Assembly: GCA_018664115.1 (NCBI GenBank)
Contig: JABJOX010000011.1
Coordinates: forward strand, 1 to 33,179
DNA length: 33,179 nt
Origin: Candidatus Woesearchaeota archaeon
GTDB lineage: Archaea > Nanobdellota > Nanobdellia > Woesearchaeales > GW2011-AR9
Reading direction: 5' to 3'
The notes beneath the pieces were generated by a model. The model worked only from the letters and a program-made list of their open reading frames with translations, was not told the origin of the DNA and did not search any database. The translations under genes and the position numbers were made by a program. This document shows, one piece after another, positions 3,996-17,881 of the stretch (its first letter is position 1; every line of letters begins with the position of its first letter).

Positions 3996-5099
3996 CTATT
4001 CAATCTCAAATCTTAATATAGCAGCAATCCCACCCAAATCTCGAAGTTGTGCTCCTTCTCTTGTTTCTGTAGAAATAATTTTCACTTCTGCTCCTGAAGT
4101 TTGAGCATTTTCTTCCAATTCAAAGATTTTATTTTCAGGAATGATTTCTGAAATAAGGAGGATATCAACAGCAGCCATTTCCAAAGCTTTCAAAGTTTCT
4201 TTTTCTCCATAAGTTGTTTTTTTTGGAAAATCTCTAAGAACATTAAAGAATTGTTGCATACTTTTTTTCTCTTTAGAAACTTCTTCTTCAGCAAGAAGAT
4301 CTTCTGATCTTTCTAATAATTCTTGCAAACCAAATTCGCCAGTATAAGACAAATCTTTTGTACCAATGATTTTCTTTTTTACATCACCAGTAAGATAATC
4401 TTTATTCATAAAATCGTTAATAGTAACGCCTGGGCCACCAATGATAATCCCTTTCAAATCTTTTCCCAAATGTAAAAATTGATCTTTCATATATTCAGCA
4501 ACTTTTTTGAAATGATCTTTAGCAGCACCTTCTCTTAAACGAGCGAATCTTTGTGCGGATTGACCACCAGCTTTTGTTTTTCCGGGAACTTCTGAATGGG
4601 TTTTTTGTAAAGGAACAATAGTTTTACCTTTCAATAAAGCAATAGTGGCATCTCTTCTGTCCATAACAACTAAGCCGTAAACTTCTTTTTCTACTAACAT
4701 TTCTTCTAAAAGATCAGTCACAAAATTTTTATCACAACGATAGATTCTAGTATTTAACGGAATAGGTGGTTCAACACTCCACACGCGAACATCTTGTTTA
4801 CCTTCTCCTGCGGCAACGTTTCCCGAGAAGACAGCAAAACCATTTGCGGGCGTATTGCCAACAGTTCTTAAATGTTGAATCATTTTTTCTAAAGCGTTTT
4901 GAACATTCTTTCTAGTAGAAGCAGATTTGATGTTAGAAGCAGTACCTTGTTCTTCTGCGAGATGTTGAATGATTTTGACCATATCATAACCAGTGGGGAT
5001 GTAAACGGTTACAAACTCAGTATGAGGGGCCTTATGGCTACGTAACTCATGAACTATTTTTTTTAGTTTCAGTTTCTCTTGTGCGGTTATTGCTGCCAT
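3996..5099 (-). CDS. prf1: Peptide chain release factor aRF1
   Basis: A 367-residue class I release factor. Stop-codon recognition motifs NIKS (56-59) and YRCDKNF (YxCxxxF, 120-126) lie in the N domain. The peptidyl-tRNA hydrolysis motif GGQ is at 178-180. The C domain (about 250-367) is short: the cysteine-containing minidomain found in many archaeal and eukaryotic members is missing, so the protein is about 45 residues shorter than the usual ~410. A TATA box 26 nt before the ATG lies at the 3' end of the AK6 gene and gives it its own leaderless start. Confidence 0.97.
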   Translation of the reverse strand: MAAITAQEKLKLKKIVHELRSHKAPHTEFVTVYIPTGYDMVKIIQHLAEEQGTASNIKSASTRKNVQNALEKMIQHLRTVGNTPANGFAVFSGNVAAGEGKQDVRVWSVEPPIPLNTRIYRCDKNFVTDLLEEMLVEKEVYGLVVMDRRDATIALLKGKTIVPLQKTHSEVPGKTKAGGQSAQRFARLREGAAKDHFKKVAEYMKDQFLHLGKDLKGIIIGGPGVTINDFMNKDYLTGDVKKKIIGTKDLSYTGEFGLQELLERSEDLLAEEEVSKEKKSMQQFFNVLRDFPKKTTYGEKETLKALEMAAVDILLISEIIPENKIFELEENAQTSGAEVKIISTETREGAQLRDLGGIAAILRFEIE

Positions 5100-7376: not shown

Positions 7377-8336
7377 TTATTCTTCTTCTGGTTGATCATC
7401 CAAAGCTATTTTTTCAAAGACTTCATTTAAAGTTGGTTTACGTACATCCATATCATAAAAGTTTAGTCCTTCATCTTTAATTATATTTAATAATCCCTCC
7501 ATTGTATCTTTAATGTGCTCAGGATAAATTATTAATTTATGGTTTTTATCAATTATTTTTTTGAAGTGTAGGCCTTTTAATTTTTCAAGAATATGTGCTT
7601 TTTCTTTTCCTGAATGGACATTAATTGTAAAGTGATCTTTTAGGAAAGGTTTTTTGATATCTTCGATTAATCCATGACTCTGAACTCTACCTTTATGGAC
7701 AATAGCAACTTTATTACAAATTTTTTCAATATGTTCTAATTGATGAGAAGCGATGATAATAGAAATACCTTGCTTATTAACTTCTTCTAATAAATGTAAA
7801 ATTTCTTTTTGCAAAATTGGGTCTAAATCTGCAGTTGGTTCGTCTAAAACTAAAATTTTTGGTTTATGAACTAAACTACAAGAAATGTCTAGACGTTTTT
7901 GCATTCCTCCAGAAAGATGTTCGGCAAGTTTATTGTGATGTTGGCTTAATTTGGTAAATTCTAATAAACTAGTGATATTATTTTCTAATGTTTTTTTATC
8001 AATCTTGTAAAGTTTACCAAAATGGATTAAATTTTCTTTAACAGTTAATTTTGGATAAAAAGAGTTATGTTGGGGAGTAAAACCAAAATGTCTTTTTATT
8101 TTATGTAAGTTGTCATTAAGATCTTTTTCTTTACCTTCAACTTTTGAATAATAAACTACTTCTCCATCTGTTGGTTCAATAAAGCCAACAAGTAAATTTA
8201 GTAAAGTCGTTTTTCCGCTACCCGATTGACCAATAACTCCCAGAACGTCACCAGCTTCAACCATGAGATTTACATCTCGTAGAATTTTGTTCTTCTTATA
8301 GTTCTTTGACACCCCTTTTAAACGGATTAACTCCAT
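7377..8336 (-). CDS. ABC transporter ATP-binding protein
   Basis: A 319-residue ATPase with all nucleotide-binding elements in place: Walker A GQSGSGKTT (36-44), Q-loop Gln89, signature LSGGM (141-145), Walker B ILVLDEP (161-167) and the switch His198. A C-terminal region of about 90 residues past the core ATPase resembles that of ABC-2 exporter ATPases. It pairs with the permease at 5641-7353. A TATA box 27 nt before the ATG makes it the leaderless first gene of a two-gene operon. Confidence 0.95.
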   Translation of the reverse strand: MELIRLKGVSKNYKKNKILRDVNLMVEAGDVLGVIGQSGSGKTTLLNLLVGFIEPTDGEVVYYSKVEGKEKDLNDNLHKIKRHFGFTPQHNSFYPKLTVKENLIHFGKLYKIDKKTLENNITSLLEFTKLSQHHNKLAEHLSGGMQKRLDISCSLVHKPKILVLDEPTADLDPILQKEILHLLEEVNKQGISIIIASHQLEHIEKICNKVAIVHKGRVQSHGLIEDIKKPFLKDHFTINVHSGKEKAHILEKLKGLHFKKIIDKNHKLIIYPEHIKDTMEGLLNIIKDEGLNFYDMDVRKPTLNEVFEKIALDDQPEEE

Positions 8337-8410: not shown

Positions 8411-8689
8411 TTAAACTTTGTGTTCTTTCTTTAAAGCATGGGAATAAGTTAAGTAATGATGTCTTAATTTTGTTAGAAGATGATTATGTTTTTTCATTAA
8501 TCCTTTAATATTCTCAGTTGCTTTTTTGTGTTTAAGTTTGTGTCTTAGTTTTTTATTTTCAGATTTAGTTTTATTATGTTTATGAATATGTTTATGAGCT
8601 TTCTTACTTAATTTTTTTATTTCTCTATTTATTTTAGTTAATTTTTTAGAGTATAAATACAAATAACTTGCTTCGTGGATAAGATTCAT
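8411..8689 (-). CDS. Small His/Lys-rich helical protein, unknown function
   Basis: A 92-residue, very basic protein with 13 His and about 24 Lys and no Cys. His residues cluster at 29-36 (HKHIHKH) and again near 74-92. No helix-breaking proline is present, and the heptad-like spacing suggests a coiled coil or helical hairpin. Metal or nucleic-acid binding is possible but unproven. A TATA box 26 nt before the ATG supports a real, leaderless gene. It is not part of the ABC operon, which has its own promoter. No family was recognised. Confidence 0.6.
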   Translation of the reverse strand: MNLIHEASYLYLYSKKLTKINREIKKLSKKAHKHIHKHNKTKSENKKLRHKLKHKKATENIKGLMKKHNHLLTKLRHHYLTYSHALKKEHKV

Positions 8690-11543: not shown

Positions 11544-11587
11544 TTTTAACGTTATGGGATTGTTAAAACATTAATTCTACCGATATC

Positions 11588-11597
11588 TTTATAAAAG
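11588..11597 (+). promoter_or_regulatory. TATA box of the ribosomal superoperon
   Basis: TTTATAAAAG is the strongest TATA match in the 210-nt gap before uL3. Transcription would start near 11616-11620, giving a leader of about 135 nt rather than a leaderless mRNA. Confidence 0.6.
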
Positions 11598-11615
11598 GCT
11601 CCAGTTCCCATGCAT

Positions 11616-11739
11616 TAACCAGTATTAAACTGCTTTCCAAGAGGAAGTAAATGGTTCTGGTTATAATTGGCCTGAAAAGGTGAGCATCTAAGATTCAATT
11701 CTCTGATGCGATCCATGAAAAGGCTGTTTATACGAAAAA
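11616..11739 (+). promoter_or_regulatory. Structured 5' leader of the ribosomal superoperon (candidate regulatory RNA)
   Basis: Three nested pairings can be read. P1 is TAACCAG (11616-11622) with CTGGTTA (11657-11663). P2 inside it is TTTCC (11634-11638) with GGAAG (11643-11647) around AAGA. P3 is TGGCCT (11668-11673) with AGGCTG (11721-11726), containing GG/CC, a U.U, tandem G.A pairs and GCATC (11684-11688) with GATGC (11705-11709). The predicted transcript start coincides with the 5' arm of P1. By analogy with known ribosomal protein leaders, a superoperon protein might bind it and repress translation (inference). Confidence 0.5.
11651..11683 (+). CDS. Possible 10-codon leader peptide
   Basis: MVLVIIGLKR then TGA. 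GAGG at 11641-11644 lies 6 nt before the ATG, but part of it is in the P2 stem, so translation and folding would compete. There is no other evidence that it is translated. Confidence 0.2.
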   Translation: MVLVIIGLKR

Positions 11740-11753
11740 CATAGGGAAAAAAT

Positions 11754-12716
11754 ATGCCTAAAGCACATAAACCAAGATTAGGAAGTATGCAATTTTGGCC
11801 TCGGAAAAGAACAAAACATTCTTTAGTTAGAGTTAGGTCTTGGGCTAAACAAAATCAAGTGAAATTATTGGGTTTTATTGGTTATAAAGCTGGAATGACT
11901 CATTTAATGGTTATTGATAATCATCCTAAGTCTTTAACAAAAGGCAAAGAAATTGTTGTTCCAACAACAATTATTGAATGTCCACCAATGTATGTGGCTG
12001 GTGTTTCTTTTTATAAAAAAACTTTATTGGGTTTAAACAAATCAATTTCTATTTTAGCTGAAAAATTACCTAAAGAAATGGCTAAAAAAGTTCAATTACC
12101 TAAAAAAACAATTAAAAAAATTGAAGAAGTAAAAGAGTTTGATGATTTACGTTTATTAGTTGCTTCTAATCCTAAATCAACAGGGGTAGGCACAAAAAAA
12201 CCAAAATTATTAGAAATTGCTTTAGGCGGTTCTAATGAAGACAAATTAACTTATGCTAAAGAAAATTTAGGTAAAGAGGTCAAAATTTCTGACGTTTTTG
12301 AATCTGGAAAACAAGTTGATGTTCATGCTAAAACTAAAGGAAAAGGTTTCCAAGGAACAGTTAAAAGATACGGAGTTCCAATTAAACAACACAAAGGCGA
12401 GAAAACTAAACGAGGAATTGGTAACTTAGGTGCTTGGACTCCGAAAAGAGTTGACTTTAGAGTTCCTCAACCGGGAAAGATGGGTTATCATTTGAGAACA
12501 GAATATAACAAACATATTATTAAAATTGGTAATGACGGTAAAGAAGTTACTCCTAAAAGTGGTATACAAAAGTATGGGGTTGTTACTAATGACTATTTAT
12601 TATTAAAAGGTTCAGTTGCCGGGGCAAGAAAAATGCCAGTTCTTTTAACTGAAGCAATCAGAGCAAACAAAAAATTCACTAAAGAAGCACCTGAAGTTGC
12701 TTCTATCCACCTATGA
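11754..12716 (+). CDS. rpl3: Ribosomal protein uL3
   Basis: A 320-residue large-subunit protein, near the usual archaeal length. The N-terminus (MPKAHKPRLGSMQFWPRKR) and the loop segment GKGFQGTVKRYGVP, which reaches toward the peptidyl transferase centre, identify it. It is the first gene of the superoperon and follows the structured leader. uS10 is not next to it. The stop overlaps the uL4 start as ATGA. Confidence 0.97.
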   Translation: MPKAHKPRLGSMQFWPRKRTKHSLVRVRSWAKQNQVKLLGFIGYKAGMTHLMVIDNHPKSLTKGKEIVVPTTIIECPPMYVAGVSFYKKTLLGLNKSISILAEKLPKEMAKKVQLPKKTIKKIEEVKEFDDLRLLVASNPKSTGVGTKKPKLLEIALGGSNEDKLTYAKENLGKEVKISDVFESGKQVDVHAKTKGKGFQGTVKRYGVPIKQHKGEKTKRGIGNLGAWTPKRVDFRVPQPGKMGYHLRTEYNKHIIKIGNDGKEVTPKSGIQKYGVVTNDYLLLKGSVAGARKMPVLLTEAIRANKKFTKEAPEVASIHL

Positions 12717-13525
12717 AAATGAAACTACAAATATTTGATAAGGAAAAGAAACAGTTAAACGAAAAGGAGTTACCTAATCAGTTTCACGAAGAATATAGGC
12801 CGGACTTAATTAAAAGAGCAGTTCATGCTTTACAAAGTGCAGCTAGACAAGCTTACGGAGCAAATCCTAAAGCAGGTATGAGACATTCTTCAACGTTAAG
12901 TAAAAGAAGAAGAAAATATCGTGGTTGTTATGGTTTTGGAATTAGTAGAGTTAATAGAAAAATTCTTTCTAGAAGAGGAACAAGAATGTTTTGGGTTGGT
13001 GCTTTTTCTCCACAAACTCGAGGTGGAAGAAGATCTCATGCACCTAAAGCAGAAAAATCTTTTGAAAAAAATATTAATAAGAAAGAAAACAGAAAAGCTA
13101 TCCGTTCCGCAATTGCGGCTACAGTTAATAAGAATTTAGTTGAAAGTAGAGGACATAAAGTTCCTGAAGATTATCCATTTATTTTAGATTCATCCTTTGA
13201 ACAACAAGATAAAACTAAAGATGTTAAGAATACTTTACAAAATTTAGGTTTTAATGATGAACTGCAAAGATCTTTAATTAAAAAAGTTCGGGCAGGGATT
13301 GGAAAAGTTAGAGGAAGAAAATATCAACGTAAAAAAGGACTTTTAATTGTTGTCGGTGACGATTGTCCATTATTAAAGTCAGCAAAGAATATTGCAGGAT
13401 TAGATGTAGTGAAAGTAAACTCATTAAATGCAGAATTATTGGCTCCTGGTGCAATGCCTGGGCGAGTTGCTGTTTGGACAGAAAAAGCAATTGAAAGTTT
13501 AGATAAAAACAAATTATTTAATTAA
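12713..13525 (+). CDS. rpl4: Ribosomal protein uL4
   Basis: A 270-residue protein of archaeal/eukaryotic type. RPDLIKRAVHALQSAARQ near residue 28 and the Arg/Gly-rich loop (about 55-110) that lines the exit tunnel are typical. The ATG at 12713 overlaps the uL3 stop by 4 nt; a second ATG at 12719 is possible and would remove two residues. It is cotranscribed with uL3 and uL23. Confidence 0.96.
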   Translation: MKMKLQIFDKEKKQLNEKELPNQFHEEYRPDLIKRAVHALQSAARQAYGANPKAGMRHSSTLSKRRRKYRGCYGFGISRVNRKILSRRGTRMFWVGAFSPQTRGGRRSHAPKAEKSFEKNINKKENRKAIRSAIAATVNKNLVESRGHKVPEDYPFILDSSFEQQDKTKDVKNTLQNLGFNDELQRSLIKKVRAGIGKVRGRKYQRKKGLLIVVGDDCPLLKSAKNIAGLDVVKVNSLNAELLAPGAMPGRVAVWTEKAIESLDKNKLFN

Positions 13526-13526
13526 A

Positions 13527-13850
13527 ATGGTTGAAAATATCAAGAAAGGAACTGAACAAGAAAATAAGGAAGAAATAGCTATTGATAATTTTAATCCTTA
13601 TCAAATAATTAAACACCCTTTATCTACTGAGAAAGCTATTAGACAAATTGAGTTCGATAACAAACTTACTTTTGTTGTTCATCCTCGAGCAACAAAAAAA
13701 GATGTTAAAAAGGCTGTTGAAGAGTTATTTAAAGTTAAAGTTATAAAAATTAATATTCAAAATTCATTTACTGGAGAGAAGAGAGCATATGTTAAATTAG
13801 GTCCTGAAAGTTTAGCTGCAGATATTAGTGCAGATTTAGGATTGATCTAG
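13527..13850 (+). CDS. rpl23: Ribosomal protein uL23
   Basis: A 107-residue protein near the tunnel exit, where it forms part of the docking site for SRP and SecY. The core begins at IIKHPLSTEKA (residue 28), followed by the FVVHPRATKKDVKKAVEELF segment. The first ~27 residues are an acidic/Lys-rich extension. It starts 1 nt after the uL4 stop. Confidence 0.96.
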   Translation: MVENIKKGTEQENKEEIAIDNFNPYQIIKHPLSTEKAIRQIEFDNKLTFVVHPRATKKDVKKAVEELFKVKVIKINIQNSFTGEKRAYVKLGPESLAADISADLGLI

Positions 13851-13860
13851 GTAAAATAAA

Positions 13861-14568
13861 ATGGGTAAACGACTAATACAACAAAGACGGGGAAGAGGAA
13901 CCATGACCTATCGTTCACCTAGTTTTAGATTCCAAGGAAAAGTTAAACATTATAATTTAGAAACCGTAGGGAAAGTTATGGACATTATCCATTGTCAAGG
14001 CCATAGTGCGCCTTTAATTGAAGTTGAATATCTTACTGGAACAAAAGGATTATCTTTTGCTCCTGAAGGGATCAAAGTTGGCGACGAAATTGGAATTGGA
14101 ACAAGTGAAGAATTAAAAGCTGGAAGTGTTTTTTCTTTGAAAGACATTCCGGAAGGAACTTTAGTTCATAATTTAGAACTTCGACCTGGTGATGGTGGAA
14201 AATTAGTACGTGCTTCAGGTTCTTTTGCTAAAATTGTAGCGAAGACTGAGAAAGCAGTAAGAGTTAAATTACCTTCAAATAAAGAAAAATCATTTTTACC
14301 TAATTGTCGTGCGGCAATTGGAGTTATTGCTGGTGGTGGAAGATTAGAAAAACCATTAATGAAAGCCGGTACTAAATTTAGAAAAATGCGAGCAAAAAAC
14401 AAATTATATCCAAAAGTACAGGGAATTTCAATGAATGCAGTAGACCATCCTTTTGGTGGTTGTCACAGTACTCATAAAGGAAGACCTACTTTATCTCCTC
14501 GAAGTGCTCCTCCGGGAAGAAAAGTTGGTAAAATTGCTCCAAGAAGAACAGGTAGGAGAAATAAATAA
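13861..14568 (+). CDS. rpl2: Ribosomal protein uL2
   Basis: A 235-residue core protein that ties the subunits together near the peptidyl transferase centre. MGKRLIQQRRGRGTMTYRSPSFR at the N-terminus, an SH3-like middle and the C-terminal NAVDHPFGGCHSTHKGRP region identify it. Archaeal members normally read HPFGGG; here the third Gly is Cys. It starts 10 nt after uL23. Confidence 0.97.
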   Translation: MGKRLIQQRRGRGTMTYRSPSFRFQGKVKHYNLETVGKVMDIIHCQGHSAPLIEVEYLTGTKGLSFAPEGIKVGDEIGIGTSEELKAGSVFSLKDIPEGTLVHNLELRPGDGGKLVRASGSFAKIVAKTEKAVRVKLPSNKEKSFLPNCRAAIGVIAGGGRLEKPLMKAGTKFRKMRAKNKLYPKVQGISMNAVDHPFGGCHSTHKGRPTLSPRSAPPGRKVGKIAPRRTGRRNK

Positions 14569-14570
14569 AA

Positions 14571-14951
14571 ATGGCAAAAGAAATATTGTGGAAAGGCAGA
14601 ACTGAAGAGGAAGCTAAAAACATGGAAATGAAAGAGTTCATGGAATTAGTTTCATCCCGACAAAGAAGAAGTTTGAAGAGGGGCTTTACAGATGCACAGA
14701 AAAGATTAATGAAAAAAATTGAAGCTGACGACCAAAATATTAAAACACATTGTCGTGATGTTGTTATTACTCCAATAATGTTGGGAAAAACATTAAAGAT
14801 TTACACAGGTAAAGAATTTGTACCTTTAATAATCACTTTAGAAATGCTAGGACATAGTTTGGGAGAGTTTGCTCATACCAGAAAATCTGTATCACATAGT
14901 GCTGCAGGTGTTGGGGCAACAAGATCCAGTAAAGCTGTATCAGCAAGATAA
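14571..14951 (+). CDS. rps19: Ribosomal protein uS19
   Basis: A 126-residue small-subunit head protein that contacts uS13 and the A-site tRNA region. The archaeal-type segments MEFMELVSSRQRRSLKRG-like (residues about 23-40), HCRDVVITPIMLGKTLKIY and LGHSLGEFAHTRKSV are present. It starts 2 nt after the uL2 stop. Confidence 0.96.
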   Translation: MAKEILWKGRTEEEAKNMEMKEFMELVSSRQRRSLKRGFTDAQKRLMKKIEADDQNIKTHCRDVVITPIMLGKTLKIYTGKEFVPLIITLEMLGHSLGEFAHTRKSVSHSAAGVGATRSSKAVSAR

Positions 14952-14959
14952 AAATAAAA

Positions 14960-15613
14960 ATGACTACTAAAAAAACTGCAAATCCTGAACATTTTGCTCG
15001 TGCAAATAGTTTTAACGTTCCGATTTCAACTAAACAAAGTATAGAAATCAGTAAAAGTTTACGATACAAGAGAACAAATTATGCAATCAGTTTTCTTGAA
15101 GAAGTAATTGGGTTAAGAAAAGCAGTTCCTTTCAAAACTTTTAACCGTGATATGGGACATAAAGCAGGAATGTCTTCAGGTAGATTCCCACAGAAAGCGG
15201 CTAAAGAGTTTTTACGTTTAGTGAAATCTGTCGAGGCTAATGCTCAATTTAAAGGTTTGAACACTTCCAATTTAAAAATAACTAAACTTGTTGCTAATAA
15301 AGGAGTAGTTCCTATAACTGGTGGAAGACATCGAAGAGCAACTAAAAGAACAAATTTAGAAATTGAAGTTAAAGAAGTTGCTGGAAAGAAAACTGAAGAG
15401 AAAAAGAAAAAAGAAGCAAAAGTAGTTAAAAAGGAAGAGAAAAATGTTCCTGTTACTGAAACAAAAGTTGAAGAAAAAGTAGCAGAAGTTAAAGATGCAG
15501 TGGAAACTAAAGAAGTTGAAGAGAAAAAAGAAGCTGTTGTTGAAGAAACTAATAATCAAGATAATCAAAATGAAATCAAAGAACAACCTGTAGAGGAGGA
15601 GAAGAAAGAATGA
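14960..15613 (+). CDS. rpl22: Ribosomal protein uL22 with Lys/Glu-rich tail
   Basis: The globular part (residues 1-135) matches archaeal uL22, including the tunnel-lining beta hairpin and the end GGRHRRATKRTNLEI. Residues 141-217 are a low-complexity Lys/Glu/Val tail that is not part of the common fold. The stop overlaps the uS3 start (ATGA), and a GAGGAGG site for uS3 lies in this gene's end. Confidence 0.95.
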   Translation: MTTKKTANPEHFARANSFNVPISTKQSIEISKSLRYKRTNYAISFLEEVIGLRKAVPFKTFNRDMGHKAGMSSGRFPQKAAKEFLRLVKSVEANAQFKGLNTSNLKITKLVANKGVVPITGGRHRRATKRTNLEIEVKEVAGKKTEEKKKKEAKVVKKEEKNVPVTETKVEEKVAEVKDAVETKEVEEKKEAVVEETNNQDNQNEIKEQPVEEEKKE

Positions 15614-16695
15614 TTGAGAGAGAGTTTATTGCCCAAAAAACGAAAGAGTATTATATCAAGAAATTTGTTGGAACTAAATTAGATAAGGCAGGCGTATCTT
15701 CAATTAGATTAAAGAAAATTCCTTTAGGTGAAAAAATCATTATTGAAACTAGCAGACCAAGCTTAATTGTTGGGTCGAAAGGTGCTAACATCAAAGAATT
15801 AACTAGAGCATTAAAGAAAGAGTTTAAATTAGAAAATCCTCAAATCGAAATTAACGAAGTTAAAAATATATTTTTAGATCCTGCAATTGTTGCTGAAAGA
15901 ATTGCTTATTCCTTAGAACGATTTGGTTCAGCAAGGTTTAAAGGGATTGGTCACAAAACATTGGAAAATGTAATGACTGCTGGTGCTTTAGGTGTAGAAA
16001 TCATTATTTCCGGAAAAATACCAAGTACAAGAGCAAGAAATTGGCGTTTTTATCAAGGTTATTTGAAGAAATGTGGAGATGTAGCAATTCATGGAGTAAA
16101 ACATGCTCAAACTTCTGCTTTGTTAAAAAGTGGAATCATTGGAATTAAAGTATCAATTATGCCACCAGATATCGTTTTACCTGATCATATTGAAATCTTA
16201 GAAGAAGCTGAACAAGTTGTTGAAGAAATTACTGAGAAGAAAGATAAAAAAGGTAAGAAAAAAACTGCTAAGAAAACTTCAGCTGCTAAGAAGAAAACAG
16301 AAACAAAAGAAGTAAAAGAAACAGAAGAAACTAGTGAAACAAAAGTTGAAGCTACTGAAGATAAAGTTTCTGTTAATACTGAAGCAAAAGTTGAAGAAAA
16401 ATCTGAAGTTGAAGAAAAACCTACTGAAGCAAAAGCAGTTGAAGTTGAAAATGAAGAAGTAGTTAACGAATCATTATTAGAAAAAGCAGAACATGCTGTT
16501 GAACATTTAGCTCATGAAGTTAAAGAAGAAATAAAACATGTAGTTGAAGGTGTTGAGAAAGGTGTTGGAAAAGTTGTTGAGAAAGTTGAAGAAGTGCTTC
16601 ATATTAAACATGAAGAAAAATCTGAAAATGTACCTGAAGAAAAATCTGAAGAGACATCTGTAGACACACCTGAAGATAAGGAAAAATTACAATGA
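15610..16695 (+). CDS. rps3: Ribosomal protein uS3 with very long acidic/Lys tail
   Basis: Residues 1-200 form uS3: a KH domain with IVGSKGANI (53-61) and the C-terminal domain with STRARNWRFYQGYLKKCG. This protein lies at the mRNA entry. Residues about 205-361, over 40% of the protein, are a Lys/Glu/Val/Ala repeat tail, with helical stretches such as EKAEHAVEHLAHEV that could form an amphipathic helix. It overlaps uL22 and uL29 by 4 nt each. Confidence 0.95.
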   Translation: MIEREFIAQKTKEYYIKKFVGTKLDKAGVSSIRLKKIPLGEKIIIETSRPSLIVGSKGANIKELTRALKKEFKLENPQIEINEVKNIFLDPAIVAERIAYSLERFGSARFKGIGHKTLENVMTAGALGVEIIISGKIPSTRARNWRFYQGYLKKCGDVAIHGVKHAQTSALLKSGIIGIKVSIMPPDIVLPDHIEILEEAEQVVEEITEKKDKKGKKKTAKKTSAAKKKTETKEVKETEETSETKVEATEDKVSVNTEAKVEEKSEVEEKPTEAKAVEVENEEVVNESLLEKAEHAVEHLAHEVKEEIKHVVEGVEKGVGKVVEKVEEVLHIKHEEKSENVPEEKSEETSVDTPEDKEKLQ

Positions 16696-16898
16696 AAATC
16701 ACTAAAGAATTAAGATCATTATCTGACGAAGAATTGAAAGTTCGTGTAGGAGAGTTTAGAAAAGAGTTACTGAAACTGAGTGTTGAAGTGGCTAGTGGTG
16801 GTAATCCTTCCAGCCCGGGAAGAATTAGGCAAGTGAAAAAAAATATTGCAAGAACGCTTACTTTAATTAAAGAAAAAGAAACGGGGGCTAAGAAATAA
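16692..16898 (+). CDS. rpl29: Ribosomal protein uL29
   Basis: A 68-residue two-helix protein at the tunnel exit. The ELRSLSDEELKVRVGEFRKEL helix and the GRIRQVKKNIARTLTLIKEKE helix are typical. The start overlaps the uS3 stop (ATGA), and the gene is followed after 6 nt by aIF1. Confidence 0.95.
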   Translation: MKITKELRSLSDEELKVRVGEFRKELLKLSVEVASGGNPSSPGRIRQVKKNIARTLTLIKEKETGAKK

Positions 16899-16904
16899 AT
16901 AAAG

Positions 16905-17210
16905 ATGGTCGGTGTATGTAATAACTGTGGCTTGCCACAAGACCTTTGCGTTTGTGAAACAATCGCACGGGAACAACAAAAGATAACTGTTGGATTGGAA
17001 AAAAGAAAATTCGGGAAAAAGTATACCATTATAAAAGGTATCGAGAAAGAAGCTAATATCGACGAAATCTTAAAAAAACTTAAAACTAAGTTTGCTTGTG
17101 GAGGAACAGCCAAAGGTGGACAAATTGAGTTGCAAGGCAATCACAAGCCGAGAATTAAGAAAGTTTTAGTGGATTTAGGATTTGCTGAAGAAACCATTGA
17201 ACTTCGTTGA
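16905..17210 (+). CDS. Translation initiation factor aIF1 (SUI1 family)
   Basis: A 101-residue protein. The N-terminal zinc-finger-like segment CNNCGLPQDLCVC (residues 5-17) is usual for archaeal aIF1, followed by the SUI1 domain with KYTIIKGIE, KFACGGTAKGGQIELQG and the C-terminal HKPRIKKVL. It monitors start-codon pairing in the P site. Its place between uL29 and Rpp29 is conserved in many archaea. Confidence 0.96.
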   Translation: MVGVCNNCGLPQDLCVCETIAREQQKITVGLEKRKFGKKYTIIKGIEKEANIDEILKKLKTKFACGGTAKGGQIELQGNHKPRIKKVLVDLGFAEETIELR

Positions 17211-17218
17211 GGAAATGA

Positions 17219-17473
17219 ATGGTAAAGAAAAAAATCTTCCCCTATGAACTAATTGGAGAAAAAATTGAAATCCTCCATTCCAAAAACAAGAGTAATCTTG
17301 GTATTAAAGGAAAAGTAATTGACGAAACCAAAATGACCCTGAAAATTAAATGGGGAGAAAAGGTTAAGACTTTACTCAAAAACAATATCACCTTCAAAAT
17401 TGTTCGTAACGAACAAATCATTACAGGTCAAGAAATCATGAAGAGGCCTGAAGAAAGAATAAAAGGAAAATAA
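17219..17473 (+). CDS. rnp1: RNase P protein component Rpp29 (Pop4 homolog)
   Basis: An 84-residue protein with the Sm-like barrel of Rpp29/Pop4: YELIGEKIEILHSKN, LGIKGKVIDETKMTLKI and a Lys-rich end. It binds the specificity domain of RNase P RNA together with Rpp21. The length is normal for the archaeal core form. Its position between aIF1 and uS17 is the standard archaeal arrangement. Confidence 0.93.
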   Translation: MVKKKIFPYELIGEKIEILHSKNKSNLGIKGKVIDETKMTLKIKWGEKVKTLLKNNITFKIVRNEQIITGQEIMKRPEERIKGK

Positions 17474-17485
17474 AAAAATAAAAAA

Positions 17486-17881
17486 ATGACAAAAGAAATC
17501 CTGGGTGTAAAAGCACCAAAGAACAACTGTACTGATCAAAAATGTCCTTTCCATGGACAGATTAATGTAAAGAATGAACTATTCAAAGGTAAAGTAATCA
17601 AGAAAGATATTAATCGTTCCGCGACTATTGAATGGAATAGACCTTATTACATACCTAAATATGAAAGATATGAAGTTAGAAGAAGTAGAATGAGAGTTCA
17701 CAACCCTGGCTGTATTGATGCTGGAATTGGTCAAGAAGTTTTAGTCGCTAAAACAAGACCATTAAGTAAAAATAAAAATCATGTTATTATTAAAATTATT
17801 GAAGAAGAAACTAAAGAAACTAAGAAAAAAATTGTAACTAAAAAAATTAAAACTGAAGAAAAAAGTGAGGACCAAGAATAA
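17486..17881 (+). CDS. rps17: Ribosomal protein uS17
   Basis: A 131-residue small-subunit protein with the archaeal N-terminal CTDQKCPFHG segment (15-24) and an OB fold ending with VLVAKTRPLSKNKNHVIIKI. Residues about 108-131 are a Lys/Glu tail. Its stop and the uL14 start share one base (TAATG at 17879-17883). Confidence 0.96.
   Translation: MTKEILGVKAPKNNCTDQKCPFHGQINVKNELFKGKVIKKDINRSATIEWNRPYYIPKYERYEVRRSRMRVHNPGCIDAGIGQEVLVAKTRPLSKNKNHVIIKIIEEETKETKKKIVTKKIKTEEKSEDQE

Follow-up and report, generated by a model that had tools for sequence, protein, structure and literature searches.

A conserved, structured RNA upstream of uL3 in Woesearchaeales: a putative new class of ribosomal protein leader

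What does the intergenic DNA in front of the uL3 operon of a Candidatus Woesearchaeota archaeon encode? In the stretch of DNA analysed here (33,179 nt of contig JABJOX010000011.1, referred to as a whole as the window), uL3 and the upstream 146-codon open reading frame are separated by a gap of 210 nt (11544–11753). A preliminary description had called this gap the largest in the window and proposed that it holds a new ribosomal protein leader (r-leader) RNA. The size is correct, but the ranking holds only if the short open reading frames near 2.1–3.3 kb are real genes; if they are not counted as genes, gaps of 261 and 293 nt are also present. The promoter and genes of the operon are as follows.

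Directly before 11588–11595, plus strand: BRE-like stretch CCGATATC (sequence)
11588–11595, plus strand: TATA box TTTATAAA of the uL3 operon promoter (sequence)
11754–12716, plus strand: uL3, the first gene of the operon (Pfam Ribosomal_L3, E 9.3e-72)
12713–17881, plus strand: downstream genes, including uL4, uL23, uL2, uS19, uL22, uS3, a SUI1-domain gene and uS17 (Pfam matches)

The close relatives used for comparison were Candidatus Woesearchaeota metagenome-assembled genomes, and in 40 of 43 members of the window's family the TATA box lies 75–112 nt 5′ of the sequence GCCTG. Elsewhere in the window, the TATA box of each of three genes (7377–8336, 8411–8689 and 3996–5099) starts 30 nt ahead of the start codon, so that these genes look leaderless, in keeping with what had been said of other transcription units here. 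Because the TATA-to-start spacing is about 30 nt in these genes, the uL3 transcript start can be placed near 11618, which would give a leader of about 136 nt and agrees with an earlier estimate of about 135 nt beginning at a stem, the first pair of which is at 11617. From this promoter position, we infer that the structured element lies in the 5′ UTR. The promoter region (11563–11595) also shares 88% identity over about 31 nt, including ACCGATATCTTTATAAA, with L002 1501–1531, where a different gene of this genome has its promoter; by eye, the product of that gene is an eL21-like ribosomal protein. Within the operon, Pfam places the SUI1-domain (translation initiation factor) gene at 16905–17210.

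Between the TATA box and the uL3 start at 11754, the window sequence forms two hairpins, P1 and P2 (11617–11728). Folded as a single sequence, it reaches −35.4 kcal/mol (z −2.25), and 5 of 200 shuffled sequences do as well, indicating a moderately stable fold that is only suggestive when taken by itself. The elements below are given with the evidence for each, much of it from the alignment of 30 family leaders discussed afterward.

11617–11627, plus strand: P1a 5′ strand, partner 11652–11662 (double changes at 10/11 pairs in 30 leaders)
11628–11630, plus strand: 5′ side of the P1 internal loop, AAC (consensus NAC, with A and C invariant in the alignment columns), facing 11650–11651
11631–11637, plus strand: P1b 5′ strand, partner 11643–11649 (double changes at 5/7 pairs)
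11643–11649, plus strand: P1b 3′ strand (covariation, 30 leaders)
11650–11651, plus strand: 3′ side of the P1 internal loop, AA (alignment)
11652–11662, plus strand: P1a 3′ strand (covariation, 30 leaders)
11670–11673, plus strand: P2a 5′ strand GCCU, partner AGGC 11721–11724 (paired in 100% of the family, and also in other families)
11674–11678, plus strand: GAAAA internal loop, facing 11715–11720 (near-invariant in family and order)
11679–11680, plus strand: P2b 5′ strand GG, partner CC 11713–11714 (both pairs with double changes)
11681–11683, plus strand: UGA of a 3x3 loop, facing GAU 11710–11712, the tandem G.A of the preliminary description (G.A/A.G not conserved)
11684–11688, plus strand: P2c 5′ strand GCAUC, partner GAUGC 11705–11709 (96% paired; double changes at two pairs)
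11699–11702, plus strand: UUCU element, 3′ side of the P2 apex (conserved in family and order-wide core sequences)
11705–11709, plus strand: P2c 3′ strand (covariation, 30 leaders)
11713–11714, plus strand: P2b 3′ strand (covariation, 30 leaders)
11721–11724, plus strand: P2a 3′ strand AGGC, followed by conserved NNUU at 11725–11728 (covariation and family comparison)

The longer arm is therefore present in P2 as it had been described, with UGA/GAU next to GCAUC/GAUGC. Comparison with relatives provides much firmer evidence for the structure. The leader occurs in 43 of 44 readable uL3 upstream regions of the window's family, G033 being the sole exception. In that genome (L040), a different, repeat-rich sequence stands between the TATA box and uL3. 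We aligned 30 leaders, picked for good alignment of both hairpins; P1 is diverged in part of the remaining family members. The consensus P1 is an 11-bp helix, a NAC/AA internal loop and an inner helix, and the consensus P2 comprises GCCU/AGGC around GAAAA, then GG/CC, the 3x3 loop, CCAUC/GAUGG and an apex whose 3′ side carries a conserved UUCU. Pairing is kept in 94% of cells, and 21 of the 30 pairs have changes on both sides. The covariation score is 0.537, compared with 0.218 for shuffled alignments (none of 500 shuffles reaches the observed score) and at most 0.12 when partners are slid. The preliminary description had named a covariance model of homologous leaders as the check to make, and lack of covariation as grounds for rejection; the covariation proved to be strong. 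Because the homologues covary, the structure is decisively supported, whereas the window's own fold is only suggestive. G.U pairs outnumber A.C combinations by 101 to 11 in these leaders, which points to the plus-strand RNA as the selected, functional form.

The leader extends well beyond this family. R1, a covariance model built from the leaders of the window's family, matched 29 of the 288 genomes searched within the order, and 12 of the 29 belong to other families; all 12 of these matches lie just upstream of uL3. The uL3 upstream regions of about 45 further families contain an order-wide P2 core, GCCUGAAAA - helix - CAGUAC - hairpin - UUCU - helix - A(A/U)AGGC, which has covariation of its own. 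A second model, R2, built from 27 other-family P2 cores, matches 53 of 59 other-family uL3 upstream regions, many of its source sequences being among the 59. In a scan of 371 genomes from the phylum, R2 gave 88 matches below 1e-3, all in Woesearchaeales and none in other orders of the class, and it matched none of 37 uL3 regions of other orders. By coordinate comparison, 74 of the 75 R2 matches with a known uL3 position stand directly before uL3, the exception being a borderline match in G056. As a rule, the leader is present in a single copy per genome. In an exact pattern search over the phylum, matches in other orders were near the level of a reversed-pattern control, and none of nine inspected was near uL3. 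The leader is conserved order-wide next to uL3, in nearly the whole order. Rfam searches of the window, at both gathering and permissive thresholds, returned chance matches only. With leaders that covary, an order-wide position upstream of uL3 and no Rfam match, the proposal of a new r-leader RNA before uL3 has held up.

The periphery of the leader is more variable. In other families, the leader has a plain P1 hairpin, frequently rich in A and U (mean z −2.15), and lacks the 3x3 loop, P2b forming a continuous helix. Among 50 other-family leaders, 26 have a run of at least four U within 8 nt after AGGC (for example, L090, L098, L113 and L121), with a T fraction after AGGC of 0.58, compared with 0.24 in the rest. 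This U-tract is compatible with intrinsic termination or attenuation, which is thus possible in those families. For the window, attenuation was rejected, as a U-run after AGGC is found in none of 43 members of its family.

Other orders of the class have a different conserved uL3 leader, UUUACCCUACUG...AG(C/U)CGCUGAUUCUAG (L191, L193, L196, L201, L205, L216, L219, L220, L222 and others), whose CTGATTCTA part occurs in 16 of 37 upstream regions compared with 3.6% of mononucleotide shuffles. In two related genomes only, G059 (L074) and G140 (L100), the P1 module ACACUG/UAAAU is nested inside the P2 apex, where it adjoins CUGAUUCUA/CUGUUUCUA, a sequence that resembles the sister-order motif. Taken jointly, these observations allow a speculative reading, which we regard as doubtful, of a movable NAC-UG/UA-AA recognition module, which the window's family has in its 5′ hairpin, and G059 and G140 in the P2 apex. 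The module might mimic the C-loop of 23S H96, and the leader might share ancestry with the sister-order uL3 leader (ACUG...CUGAUUCUA). It would then be an ancient archaeal r-leader whose parts have been reshuffled with no change in the operon that it regulates.

What, then, would the leader do? We consider it likely that the uL3 superoperon mRNA is transcribed from its own promoter and begins with this structured leader, which acts in cis and represents a new r-leader class, seen so far only in Woesearchaeales; a ribosomal protein of the operon would putatively bind it and lower expression. The leader is probably autoregulatory, a switch that adjusts ribosomal protein production. In such a scheme, a primary rRNA binder encoded by the operon, most likely uL3 or uL4, would attach to the leader once its amount exceeds that of free 23S rRNA, and the leader, stabilised by the bound protein, would reduce expression. 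In the window's family, the effect would probably be on translation initiation or mRNA stability, because no U-run follows the leader there; in other families, premature transcription termination is possible, because half of them have a U-tract directly after AGGC.

Several observations bear on the identity of the ligand. In E. coli, uL3, uL4, uL22, uL23, uL24 and uL29 bind 23S rRNA early (PMC9687910), and uL4 has bacterial precedent as a leader ligand and has been proposed for Archaeoglobi too (PMC7247131). We therefore favor uL3 or uL4 as the likeliest putative ligand, and gene order cannot separate these two from each other or from the remaining proteins of the operon, since it is the same gene that follows the leader every time. 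Weighing against a ribosomal protein ligand, some regulatory RNAs of ribosomal protein genes may bind no ribosomal protein (PMC7247131), and no convincing mimicry of rRNA was detected. Neither R1 nor R2 matches anything inside eight Woesearchaeota 23S genes, and two weak R1 matches lie in DNA that flanks the rRNA gene. A looser, C-loop likeness is found in the H96 region, the sole descriptor match common to all eight 23S genes, although other 23S sites match in several genes, shuffled 23S sequences give about 1.3 matches each, and in one paper the strengthening of domain VI by uL3 occupancy is reported to leave out H96; it is only a lead. An H101-like likeness, CUGAAA...GCAUCUAAG, was dropped because it is confined to the window's closest relatives, and a box C/D reading of CUGA/UGAUG was rejected because those bases sit in covarying helices.

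Rather than an operon-encoded ribosomal protein, the leader could sense another signal, for instance temperature, a small ligand (metabolite or ion) or, by way of a k-turn, L7Ae. The highly conserved unpaired NAC/AA, GAAAA and UUCU segments do look like a ligand pocket, and regulation by L7Ae through k-turns exists in archaea (PMC5539422). Nonetheless, the leader is found only before a ribosomal protein operon, and we judge this explanation improbable. The L7Ae variant, which the preliminary description had raised on account of the G.A motif, fails on the structure itself: the 3x3 loop is symmetric and lacks the 3-nt bulge of a k-turn, G.A/A.G pairs occur in only 5 of 30 leaders (A.A being commonest), and other families lack the loop, so that no k-turn signature is conserved.

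Less probable still is a separate small noncoding RNA that has its own promoter and merely sits beside uL3. Its own TATA box, its compact fold and its distance of 10–198 nt from the start codon within the family would suit such an RNA. However, all checked copies but one, a borderline match, immediately precede uL3 on the same strand, the RNA has no Rfam match, and uL3 would be left without a promoter, since no further TATA box separates the RNA from the uL3 start codon in any of 43 family members. A constitutive mRNA-stability or ribosome-loading element without a ligand appears equally remote, for although a stable 5′ hairpin stands at the transcript start in the window's family and in others, particular loop sequences are conserved across the order, which is more than a hairpin serving only for stability would require.

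The uL3 leader, read as a cis-acting r-leader, has two of the four features expected of r-leaders, a covarying conserved structure and a position before a ribosomal protein operon across genomes; the other two, binding of an operon-encoded ribosomal protein and lowered expression in response, are predicted. It can be set beside known systems. The E. coli S10 operon leader mediates autogenous control by uL4. It too precedes an operon with uL3, uL4, uL23 and uL2, but it is bacterial, its first gene is uS10, and it is likened here by operon only, not by sequence or structure. The prior L4 leader is cited in the Archaeoglobi r-leader survey, which predicts an L4 r-leader upstream of rplC, rplD, rplW and rplB (PMC7247131). 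That leader, assigned to L4 by precedent and rated borderline (PMC7247131), belongs to another lineage; it is compared with ours by lineage and operon, and Rfam, which may or may not include its motif, has no model that matches the window. The archaeal S15 and eL15 r-leaders are likewise supported by covariation, some with poly-U after hairpins (PMC7247131), but they concern other genes and lineages and are proposed to mimic rRNA, whereas the uL3 leader models are negative against 23S. The archaeal L7Ae k-turn leader also involves a ribosomal protein acting on a G.A-containing RNA motif (PMC5539422), but k-turn features are not found in the uL3 leader. Few archaeal r-leaders are known or predicted, with four in the 2020 survey by Eckert and Weinberg (PMC7247131). 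The literature we searched, which lay largely outside subscription journals, contains no description of this leader and no r-leader in Woesearchaeota.

In summary, the uL3 leader is read as a new r-leader class with strong structural evidence and a putative function. It stands before the largest ribosomal operon in almost all of an order of archaea with small genomes, and it offers a defined RNA with which the balancing of ribosome synthesis in such organisms can be tested.
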